Below are positions 20,139 to 23,639 of a stretch of 30,147 nucleotides of DNA, in pieces (positions within the stretch are counted from its first letter, which is position 1; each line of letters begins with the position of its first letter). The stretch spans positions 1-30,147 of the IMG/VR virus record IMGVR_UViG_3300030333_003802; one strand, given 5' to 3'. The DNA is from a virus. Below the pieces are notes generated by a model. The model ran no database searches. It saw only the letters and a program-made list of their open reading frames with translations, and had not been told where the DNA came from. The position numbers and the translations under genes are program-made.

Positions 20139-20153
20139 TTGAAAGGACAAAAA

Positions 20154-20585
20154 ATGGAAACAACGACTTATTTAAAAACTTGTCGCTGTGAAGCCTGTGG
20201 ACAATGGACTAAAAAAGAAGTAGAGATAGAATGCCTTCCGACTGGAACTGAAGTATCAGTCATTCCTAATTATGAGGACGGAAAGTATGAAATCACTATT
20301 GAGTGGATAGATAGGGACATTATACAGAGTTTTGACGCTGACAATTATGCAGACATAAGGTATTTGATACAAGATGTTGCTTTTAGATTACATAATCATC
20401 ATAAAGCATTAGTCGTAAACCTTATTAATAGCGAATATAACACACACAGACGCGTGAACAGCGTCAGTCTGTCAAACTTCTTAGACAAACAGGCAGACGC
20501 AGTCTTAAAGATAGATAAACTCTTAAAGAAATATAAGAGACAAGACAATCACGCGACTAAACTAATGATGAGAGGAGGCATATAA
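20154..20585 (+). CDS. Cysteine-containing hypothetical protein
   Basis: The 143-residue product starts at ATG 20154, six bases after GAAAGGA; the TTG-initiated extension from 20139 would start inside that site. The N-terminus reads TCRCEACGQW (C10, C12, C15) with C27 shortly after, a possible zinc knuckle. A beta segment YEITIEWIDRDIIQSF follows, then helices (IRYLIQDVAFRLHNHHKAL). No family recognised. Confidence 0.7.
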   Translation: METTTYLKTCRCEACGQWTKKEVEIECLPTGTEVSVIPNYEDGKYEITIEWIDRDIIQSFDADNYADIRYLIQDVAFRLHNHHKALVVNLINSEYNTHRRVNSVSLSNFLDKQADAVLKIDKLLKKYKRQDNHATKLMMRGGI

Positions 20586-20681: not shown

Positions 20682-20780
20682 ATGTTTTTAGAAGCAATGC
20701 AAGTCGTATTAGGAGTATTCGTCGGAATACTATTAATCCTAATGGTAGTTGCAATAATAATGAATAAGTTAGAAAGGTAA
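20682..20780 (+). CDS. 32-residue single-span membrane peptide
   Basis: TAGGAGG, whose first three bases are the previous stop, lies 5-8 bases before ATG 20682. After MFLEAM, residues 7-27 are uniformly hydrophobic (QVVLGVFVGILLILMVVAII), then NKLER. That is a clean single transmembrane helix with a cytoplasmic positive end. It is a candidate small membrane effector; function unknown. Confidence 0.6.
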   Translation: MFLEAMQVVLGVFVGILLILMVVAIIMNKLER

Positions 20781-21028
20781 TAATATAGGTTTTTAAGCCG
20801 CGATTTTTATATAGCGACGCCCACCTACACATTAGACCATAGTCCTTAATCCTTTCGGGACTTGTAGGTATAGACAAGAGGCGTCGCAAAGAATTATTTG
20901 ATATGTGAAGTAGAGCAAGGCTCTGCGACTGAAGTAGACACCTACTCTTGAAGCATATTGTATATAATGGGAAGTCTCACCTGACGAGGCATTAGATATT
21001 TGACAATTAAATAAATAAGGAGACTAAT
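20781..21028 (+). promoter_or_regulatory. Structured leader of the amidotransferase-amidoligase pair
   Basis: The gap before gene 21029 holds nested helices: GCGACGCC (20814-20821) with GGCGTCGC (20880-20887), ACCTACA (20823-20829) with TGTAGGT (20863-20869), and AGTCC (20841-20845) with GGACT (20858-20862). Two hairpins follow: AGAGC-AAG-GCTCT (20912-20924) and AGTAG-ACAC-CTACT (20933-20946). Finally AGTCTC (20973-20978) can pair with GAGACT (21020-21025), which contains part of the ribosome site. TGAAGTAGA occurs twice between helices. This could be a cis-acting switch or a small RNA; I could not match it to a named riboswitch. Confidence 0.65.
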
Positions 21029-22111
21029 ATGTGTGGAATATATGGTTTAGCGAAAAGTCCGACGACTTACACCAAGCGACAATTCAAAACTGTCAAAAAG
21101 GTATTAAGAGAAATTGCAGTAGATAGTGAGACTAGAGGTGCTCACTCGTCTGGAATTGCACAAGTCGGAAACAAAACTAAAATACATAAATCACTACTTC
21201 CGTCTTCCAAATTCGTGGACAGCAAAGGTTATATAGAAGCAGTTAAATCTTTAAAAGATGGAAACTATATTCTATTAGGACACACACGATTTGCGACAGA
21301 AGGTGCTATTGTAAAGAATAATGCTCACCCATTTAGAGTTGGCGATACTATCGGCGCTCATAATGGTTGTGTCTATAATATTGAGGAAATGCAGACAAAG
21401 TTAGATAAACAATGTCCAGTAGATAGTCAATTAATATTCAAGGCAATAGACGATAATGATAACATAGACGAAGCAGTTAAACATTTTGACAGCGATTTTG
21501 CATTGTCATTTGTTAAGACAAATCCTATGGTATTACACCTATGTCGTGAGGACAATCGTCCTTTGTATGTAGCATATGTCCCAAGTTTGCTAACTCTATT
21601 TTATGCAAGCGAAGCGACTTTTATTGAGAATGCTTTGATTGCGTGTAATTTAGACGCAGAGATATATTCATTAAATAAGAATACTTTATATTCTTATGAT
21701 GTATCTAAGTTTAGCGACTTACAGACAAATGTAGAAAAAAGCGACTTTGAATACGAAAGTAGAGAATATAATTTCAGTATCAATAATTATTCTTCCAACG
21801 ACGAATTTGACGATTGGAATAGTTATAATTATAGTTATGGGAATTATCGTCCTCTATATGACACTTCACATCTTTACGACACAAATGGAAACCTAATTGA
21901 TAGTGAACTTGAAGCCGAAAAACAAGAGCTTTTGACTTGTTATGGCGGAAATCCTAACAACTGGTTTTTTGACGAAATGGAAGGTATGTGGAGTTATCTT
22001 GATGAATATACTGGACAAATTTGGACAGAAACCCAACTTATAAATGGGAATTTTCAACAAGAAATTGACTTTGAAGAGGAGACAGACAATGCCCAACCAA
22101 TACGAAACTGA
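21029..22111 (+). CDS. Class II glutamine amidotransferase (Ntn hydrolase)
   Basis: A 360-residue protein starting MCGIYGLA: after Met removal Cys2 is the N-terminal nucleophile. The class II set is present: RGAHSSG (36-42), GHTRFAT (84-90), N98/H100-P in 'NNAHPF', GAHNG (109-113) and the DSQLIF stretch (132-137). It would hydrolyse glutamine and pass on ammonia. The C-terminal 130 residues are acidic, with Asn/Tyr/Asp-rich sequence (SYNSYGNY-type), and contain no synthetase domain such as AsnB or PurF carry, so the acceptor must be handled by a partner. The next gene, overlapping by 23 bases, is an amidoligase, the partner expected for this arrangement. Ribosome site AAGGAG precedes ATG by six bases. 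Confidence 0.88.
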   Translation: MCGIYGLAKSPTTYTKRQFKTVKKVLREIAVDSETRGAHSSGIAQVGNKTKIHKSLLPSSKFVDSKGYIEAVKSLKDGNYILLGHTRFATEGAIVKNNAHPFRVGDTIGAHNGCVYNIEEMQTKLDKQCPVDSQLIFKAIDDNDNIDEAVKHFDSDFALSFVKTNPMVLHLCREDNRPLYVAYVPSLLTLFYASEATFIENALIACNLDAEIYSLNKNTLYSYDVSKFSDLQTNVEKSDFEYESREYNFSINNYSSNDEFDDWNSYNYSYGNYRPLYDTSHLYDTNGNLIDSELEAEKQELLTCYGGNPNNWFFDEMEGMWSYLDEYTGQIWTETQLINGNFQQEIDFEEETDNAQPIRN

Positions 22112-23639
22112 AACGACGCACGAGAATGCCCAGAATACAATACTATTGCAATGCGATGATTGTGGAAACGAAGTCCGCGAGGACGACTTAACTGGCACAG
22201 ACGACGGAAATGAAGTCTGTGAGGACTGTTATGATAACAATTATTCCGAGTGTTATGGTTGTAGTGGTGTTATGGTTCACGACGATATGCATTACTATAA
22301 TGGTGATTATTATTGTGAAGACTGTTTTTACGATAATTGTTTTCATTGTGCAAGTTGTGGAGAACCAGAGCATTTAGACTATTCTCGCTACGACGACCAT
22401 AGTGGAGATACTTACTGCGAAGGTTGTTATGAAGAATATGGTGGTGAGGAATACGACTGGAATGTCTTTTCAAATGAATATGTTCAAGTAAACGACGATT
22501 TTGCTTCTCCGACTAAAAACCTATACAAAAGCGATACTTACGACTTAATCCCAAGTCGCAGATATCAAGGTATAGAGGTTGAGGCAAATCATAATGGAGA
22601 CTATTCACGAGACAATATTGCAAGAGCTATTGCAGAGAGAATAGACGATACAAGGTTGGAACAGATGTTTGACGAAGTTAGTCAAGCAGAGTTTCCCGAC
22701 TGGTATAAGATAAGTGGCATTCAAGTAGTAAGTGATGGAAGTATAACAGGTGGCGACGATGGTTATGGTTATGAATATGTAATGACACCGCGTCGCGGAG
22801 ACCAACTATATACTGATATGTGTTTACTTACAGACACACTTGTAGACTATGGACATTACATTAGTAGAAAGTGTGGCTATCACTTACACATTGATATTAG
22901 AGACTACGACTATTATCACTTAACCTGTCTTATGGCTATGGTTAAGTTAATAGAACCTCATATATACTCTTGGGTTCCGCAATCCCGACTTACTGGGAAT
23001 TGGTGTCGTCCGATATCTCAAAACTGGTATGACTTTAATGGCATATACGACAGAGATGATTTCATTGAGATTTATTACGACAATGGTAATAAATTTAGAT
23101 ATGAAAAATATCACGACAAAAGGTATCACGGTTTTAACCTACACTCTCACTTTGGGAGCAATCAAGGTTTAGAACTGAGATATCACGGCGGGACACTCAA
23201 TCCGACTAAAATGTTGCATTGGAGTATTCTTTGGGGACAGATAGTAGATAAATGTTATGAACTTGGAAATGAACTCAAGACACAAGTTGATAGACGAAAT
23301 TTCTTTAAGGACATAACATTTGACAAGAGATATGGCGACGAGACGAAAGGGTTTAGAAATCCGACTATGGACATACAAAACCTTTTTGAGACTTTTGACA
23401 TACCTCAAACAACGAAAGACTACTATGGAATGCGACAAAAGGAGATAGAAAATAATCCGAATACTTCTCCGACGCATTTCGTTGATTGTTTTTCAAAGAC
23501 TTCACATATTGTGGAGTTTGACAAAGCGACAATGAGTTTCAATACAGTCAAAAAACTACCTCACAGGGTAGGGAGATATGGGACTTTACAGGAACTCACA
23601 TACGACGATATAAGCAGTCATTTTGAGATTGCCTCGTAG
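22089..23639 (+). CDS. Zinc-ribbon amidoligase (COOH-NH2 ligase fold)
   Basis: The 516-residue protein starts at ATG 22089, seven bases after GAGGAG; a start at 22044 would lie deep in the amidotransferase and lacks a site. Residues 20-115 form three zinc ribbons with paired CxxC knuckles: C22/C25-C44/C47, C55/C58-C76/C79, C87/C90-C110/C113. Residues 155-400 match the Amidoligase_2 pattern: GIEVE (161-165), SDGSI plus YEYVMTP (215-234), CGYHLHIDIRD (262-272), NLHSHFG (350-356) and LELRYHGGTLN (361-371). This fold, related to glutamine synthetase and GCS2, uses ATP to join a carboxylate to an amine. Family knowledge places it next to glutamine amidotransferase genes, as here. Acceptor unknown; the ribbons may select a protein or nucleic-acid target. 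Confidence 0.85.
   Translation: MPNQYETETTHENAQNTILLQCDDCGNEVREDDLTGTDDGNEVCEDCYDNNYSECYGCSGVMVHDDMHYYNGDYYCEDCFYDNCFHCASCGEPEHLDYSRYDDHSGDTYCEGCYEEYGGEEYDWNVFSNEYVQVNDDFASPTKNLYKSDTYDLIPSRRYQGIEVEANHNGDYSRDNIARAIAERIDDTRLEQMFDEVSQAEFPDWYKISGIQVVSDGSITGGDDGYGYEYVMTPRRGDQLYTDMCLLTDTLVDYGHYISRKCGYHLHIDIRDYDYYHLTCLMAMVKLIEPHIYSWVPQSRLTGNWCRPISQNWYDFNGIYDRDDFIEIYYDNGNKFRYEKYHDKRYHGFNLHSHFGSNQGLELRYHGGTLNPTKMLHWSILWGQIVDKCYELGNELKTQVDRRNFFKDITFDKRYGDETKGFRNPTMDIQNLFETFDIPQTTKDYYGMRQKEIENNPNTSPTHFVDCFSKTSHIVEFDKATMSFNTVKKLPHRVGRYGTLQELTYDDISSHFEIAS

Follow-up and report, generated by a model that had tools for sequence, protein, structure and literature searches.

A covarying RNA leader of an amidotransferase-amidoligase gene pair in phages, and hammerhead-type ribozymes at the corresponding site of distant relatives

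In a group of uncultivated phages we have identified a conserved, structured RNA leader directly 5' of a gene for a class II glutamine amidotransferase (GAT). The window (the whole stretch of DNA analyzed, 30,147 nucleotides, positions 1 to 30,147 of IMG/VR record IMGVR_UViG_3300030333_003802) comes from a virus record of 71,658 bases that encodes portal, terminase and head genes. As judged by comparison of related viral sequences, the fold of positions 20814-20887 is proven by compensatory changes, and it is absent from the RNA catalogues searched. It is tentatively hypothesized that this RNA acts in cis as the 5' leader of the message for amidotransferase and amidoligase and that it replaced, or arose from, a hammerhead-type leader at that site. 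A strongly covarying, non-Rfam RNA on this gene pair would provide a handle on the timing of product synthesis in phages, and a succession from a hammerhead to another fold at one site would constitute a natural series, showing how a ribozyme site turns into a control element or a new ribozyme.

The leader hairpin and its locus

The leader is preceded by a short ORF that stops at 20780 and followed by GAT, which starts at 21029. Three stacked helices (P1, P2 and P4) occupy 20814-20887 and are capped by the loop AAUCCUUUC. The features of the locus are as follows.

20682-20780, plus strand: short ORF of 32 amino acids, membrane-protein-like by its sequence, which stops 33 nt 5' of P1
20814-20821, plus strand: P1, 5' strand (GCGACGCC), partner 20880-20887 (8 bp); double changes in 2 of 8 pairs, 100% paired
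20823-20829, plus strand: P2, 5' strand (ACCUACA), partner 20863-20869 (7 bp); double changes in 4 of 7 pairs, 100% paired
20841-20846, plus strand: P4, the apical helix, 5' strand (AGUCCU), partner 20857-20862 (6 bp, one G-U); double changes in 6 of 6 pairs
20850-20856, plus strand: apical loop motif UCCUUUC, invariant across leader types A, B and C
20857-20862, plus strand: P4, 3' strand (GGGACU), from type B covariation
20863-20869, plus strand: P2, 3' strand (UGUAGGU), from type B covariation
20870-20879, plus strand: 3' side of an asymmetric internal loop (AUAGACAAGA), from the type B alignment
20880-20887, plus strand: P1, 3' strand (GGCGUCGC), from type B covariation
20887-20895, plus strand: CAAAGAAUU box immediately 3' of P1, recurring in several leader types and degenerate in part of type A
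20896-21010, plus strand: extra window-specific stretch with possible small hairpins and the AGUCUC/GAGACU pairing, within chance
21017-21022, plus strand: Shine-Dalgarno sequence (SD) of GAT, AAGGAG, from the sequence
21029-22111, plus strand: GAT, class II glutamine amidotransferase (GATase_6), 360 amino acids; Pfam PF13522, E 2.3e-14
22044-23639, plus strand: Amidoligase_2 protein, second gene of the conserved pair; Pfam PF12224, E 6.2e-17

A preliminary description of this DNA had pointed to nested helices in the leader, and these are indeed present: the ensemble pairing probabilities predicted for P1, P2 and P4 are 0.94-1.0, the 76-nt hairpin (20813-20888) folds at -29.2 kcal/mol with a z-score of -5.40 and beats 200 of 200 dinucleotide shuffles, and compensatory changes are found in relatives. 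The structures described for the second half (20889-21028) are no better than chance (z -1.61), and by eye the leaders of relatives differ from the window over this stretch. Within it, AGTCTC (20973-20978) is predicted to pair with GAGACT (21020-21025) at a probability of ~0.8, but the length of the match is within chance, some 6-nt complement to the ribosome site being held by 574 of 1000 shuffled leaders (57%). The masking of the ribosome site that had been ascribed to this pairing is particular to the window, within chance and not conserved; the SD is largely accessible by prediction in most of 12 folded relatives, with exceptions such as L007, L036 and L332. As for the suggested switch between CAAGAG (20875-20880) and CTCTTG (20945-20950), the letters exist, but every pair has a predicted probability of 0.0.

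Across related loci GAT repeatedly has an amidoligase relative behind it, with conservation of the arrangement leader, GAT, amidoligase. In many of these loci the upstream ORF at 20139-20585 also has a relative, which stands in front of GAT, and an ORF resembling the short ORF at 20682-20780 also occurs upstream in L035. Distant GATs with amidoligases are present in cultured phages, and in both Pseudomonas cases examined the gap 5' of GAT is just 52 nt (PA11) or 12 nt (LUZ24-like). When bacterial genomes were searched for GAT with the window sequence alone, none was found; an alignment-based search of bacterial genomes returned two distant matches.

Leader types, covariation and specificity

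Relatives of GAT were assembled as 53 viral loci and later as 78 and 80 (overlapping sets), and a stable hairpin lies directly 5' of GAT in nearly all related viral loci. Type A leaders (33 rows by tree labels) are of a three-way-junction type, with 29 matches representing 27 distinct leaders. Their layout consists of a 16-bp P1/P2, a joint AnUA, a P3 hairpin with GUCG in its loop and a P4 hairpin with UCCUUUC in its loop, after which P2 and P1 return and CAAAG or a degenerate form of it follows. In the alignment of 27 type A leaders, which was fitted to the model, 95.6% of the cells are paired and double changes occur in 21 of 26 pairs (115 such cells). No shuffle out of 500 reached these values on any measure, and in slid controls 23-51% of the cells were paired. 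An unfitted MAFFT seed of 12 type A leaders agrees, with double changes in 11 of 26 pairs.

Type B comprises the window, L035, L039 and L053. It is without P3 and has a single C facing an internal loop of 7-10 nt, an asymmetry (1 nt on the 5' side vs 7-10 nt on the 3' side) found in 4 of 4 leaders. These four phages are 98.8% paired, with double changes in 12 of 21 pairs. The earlier proposal of a structured leader in front of the amidotransferase gene, against which homologous leaders without compensating changes in the stems were to count, is to this extent borne out: the leader is a genuine and conserved RNA, compensating changes being abundant in both types A and B.

Model R2 was built from L035, L039 and L053 alone, with the window left out. 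Its best match in the genome of the window scores 53.4 bits (E 5e-12) and covers 20811-20895, and the runner-up there scores 14.1 bits. That the structure is a chance hairpin in an AT-rich leader is scarcely credible: the second half, 20889-21028, does behave in this way, but for 20814-20887 chance is excluded by the covariation and by the R2 match. R2 also weakly matches L027 and some type A leaders, at the correct place, so that types A, B and C probably belong to a single family. Leaders of types D and E form hairpins of two helices. In most of them a similar strand rich in CCUUU precedes the returning helix, and CAAAGAAUUU often follows their P1.

The sole matches of model R1 were GAT leaders (24 phage records, 15 with a match). 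A three-part DNA pattern run over 2.9 million viral contigs found 43 stretches, and the 16 pattern contigs outside known GAT loci gave no model match. Among the phage records tested, the leader motif was found only before the GAT-amidoligase pair and in a single copy per genome. A looser pattern (TCCTTTC..GTCGCAAA) was rejected as a motif finder, its matches being mostly chance. Scanning the window with Rfam 15 covariance models at the gathering score yielded no family, a permissive Rfam scan (E<=10) of the window, L021 (type A) and L044 (type D) gave chance matches only, and BLASTN of the leader against cultured phages returned nothing. In L015, the type A leader is immediately preceded, in tandem, by a second, diverged structured element (2779-2856; GGCGACG..CGUCGCC AAAGAAUU), an arrangement that looks as if the leader element had been duplicated.

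Hammerhead-type ribozymes at the corresponding site

Complete hammerhead cores are present directly upstream of distant GAT homologues in L331 (1906-1977), L332 (1892-1975) and L333 (1906-1977). According to the core search these are type I hammerheads located 85-92 nt 5' of the ATG, with a stem I of 6-7 bp, CUGANGA, stem II, GAAA, a stem III of 9-10 bp and GUC; that of L332, for example, reads AGUAAUA-CUGACGA-G..C-GAAA-C..G-UC-UAUUACU. With cmscan, the RAGATH-1-hammerhead model (RF03152) scored 29.9 bits in L332 and 27.6 bits in L331, both lower than its gathering score of 56.3, and the assignment accordingly rests on core, stems and position. Having a complete core and predicted stems I, II and III, the three leaders qualify as putative hammerheads. 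The leaders of L327/L328 (1876-1969) and L330 (1884-1978) were read by eye as hammerheads with altered, non-standard stem II closing pairs; the strict core search misses L327, L328 and L330, and cmscan gave no match in the L327 and L330 leaders. The same core search, applied to the window and related loci, found no joined CUGANGA/GAAA core in the window, where a lone CUGACGA lies near 20982 with no GAAA after it.

The hammerhead rows branch at the base of the GAT tree, outside the clade of UCCUUUC leaders (100/95 for the clade including L049/L050), and they are paraphyletic as the tree is rooted in the drawing; support for some of the basal nodes is weak (83/89, 81/76), and the branch of L330 is long. 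The leaders of our family are comparable to hammerheads (RF00008, RF03152) in that the latter occupy the same genomic site in basal GAT relatives and in that D and E leaders retain two stems and GCC..GGC-GUC. They differ in that the window and the type A-E leaders are without the joined CUGANGA/GAAA core, both CUGANGA and GAAA being missing from the D and E leaders. These intermediate leaders look as if they were hammerheads that had lost the core, a descent judged by position and by the GGC-GUC remnant and not by aligned intermediates. Phage hammerheads near start codons have been described, including PaP3 and HHphage 13 nt before a helicase start codon, and a PaP3 hammerhead is reported to be active in vitro (PMC3088659). 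A leader just before a start codon hence has a precedent among them (PMC3088659). In the outgroup (L411, L412, L415, L417, L419 and L420), the last 80 nt before position 1501 hold another conserved-looking hairpin, e.g. GAGUAUUAUU..CCUAUGAUGU..AAUAAUACUC.

It is improbable that the UCCUUUC leaders (types A-E) themselves self-cleave and have taken the hammerhead's place, whether as a new ribozyme class or as an offshoot of the hammerhead whose core was rebuilt. The RAGATH approach, in which structured RNAs sharing gene neighbourhoods with hammerheads are sought, has reportedly yielded new ribozyme classes. Type A was also considered as an HDV-like, twister or pistol RNA. These readings were rejected on two counts: covariation of the outer helix is that of a single stem, and none of the Rfam ribozyme models gives a match.

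Candidate functions of the leader

The retention of the fold despite letter changes, together with hammerheads at the same spot, argues for a real gene-control or RNA-cutting element. A cis-acting leader that succeeded a hammerhead is the reading that we favor, and the comparison supports it through the conserved fold 5' of GAT, the invariant UCCUUUC loop and the hammerhead-type RNAs at the homologous basal site. In a hammerhead-like role, such a leader would set the start or the lifetime of the GAT message. One possibility is a structured cut site, the type A stack of P2 and P4 (~21 bp) being as long as RNase III substrates are; another is a 5' stem-loop with a protective effect. Contact of the UCCUUUC loop with a protein or with the SD might add control. 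An RNase III site alone would not need the invariant UCCUUUC loop.

A less probable but still plausible explanation is translational control by a pseudoknot, in which the UCCUUUC loop would pair in cis with the SD of GAT and block ribosomes until a signal arrives. The invariance of the loop in types A, B and C and its complementarity to the SD core over 4-6 nt in most leaders are consistent with this explanation, as is the unusual conservation of the ribosome site, the spacer UAGACU between SD and AUG being found in 73% of GAT genes vs 1% of other SD-bearing genes on the same contigs. However, AAAGGA precedes GAT at nearly the same rate (39%) as it precedes other genes (32%), the loop is still UCCUUU beside a UAGGAG SD neighbourhood, which leaves the UUUC part unexplained, and by inspection the complementarity drops to 3-4 pairs in L027, L030 and L041. 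The predicted accessibility of the SD in most folded relatives also speaks against it, although secondary-structure folding is blind to pseudoknots. With no loop-SD covariation to count, the loop being invariant, and AAAGGA not clearly enriched, we place the hammerhead-successor leader first and SD pairing second. T4 gene 32 and preQ1-II are known examples of a phage translational operator and an SD-masking pseudoknot, and in them too the ribosome site of a single gene finds its complement in a loop; unlike them, the leaders described here show no covarying loop-SD pairs and carry the loop ~70-180 nt upstream of the start. The 3' tail of 16S rRNA is ACCUCCUUUCU in many bacteria, and UCCUUUC has those letters.

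The window spacer (21022-21028) is GACUAAU, and an example of UAGACU is found at 2989-3000 of L002. Pairing of the P3-loop UAGUC with GACUA at the start codon is suggestive in many type A leaders and was rejected as a general feature; it is broken in L004, L011, L019 and L022 (UUGUC) and in L017 (no GACU), and GACU persists in leaders without P3. The L002 group does not keep a pairing between the UCCUUUC loop and the CAAAG box, which was likewise rejected.

We consider it rather unlikely that the apical loop is an operator for an RNA-binding protein of phage or host origin, perhaps encoded in the operon itself, which would repress translation or stabilize the message. A single copy per genome, a strict tie to one operon and an invariant motif in single-stranded form would suit such an operator, and the phage operators of T4 gp32 and MS2 coat present a comparable pattern.

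A metabolite riboswitch for glutamine or for the GAT/amidoligase product is more doubtful again. The downstream enzyme belongs to a glutamine-using family according to Pfam, and the type A junction has the conserved AnUA as well as the conserved GUCG in the P3 loop, but the junction and P3 are missing from the window's type, which leaves no obvious pocket, and the leader is found before one operon only. The preliminary description had suggested a check against the glutamine riboswitch families of Rfam, and it gave no family match: the glnA and Downstream-peptide models (RF01739 and RF01704), which represent glutamine riboswitches, had no match in the window or single leaders at E<=10, and the other Rfam models gave nothing beyond chance there. 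Those RNAs resemble the present leaders in preceding a glutamine-linked gene and, for type A, in the three-way junction, whereas the window's type is without such a junction. They are known from cyanobacteria and marine samples (PMC2864571), and the leaders here are in phages. The leader may have a metabolite- or protein-sensing role, as put forward at the outset.

LUZ24-like Pseudomonas phages have another structured leader, located in front of their ATP-grasp gene (L447 (PaP3) 33183-33308, minus strand, and L448-L455), with a z-score of -3.24 in PaP3. These leaders have a conserved GUAAU/AUUGC at the base and a variable top, and by inspection their helix changes compensate between phages. 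Like the GAT leader, they form a long hairpin (with a branched top in PaP3) in front of a gene that belongs to a similar GAT/amidoligase/ATP-grasp module, and the start region of PaP3 (CAAAGAAACAGGAGAUACACUAUG) is similar; they differ in the gene, in the conserved letters (GUAAU..AUUGC at the base) and in having no R1 match. Because related modules with a structured leader occur in cultivated Pseudomonas phages, wet tests are within reach. The PaP3 record (L447) also holds two hammerhead-like sequences on the minus strand, near 44106 and 45444, close to the record end and away from GAT.
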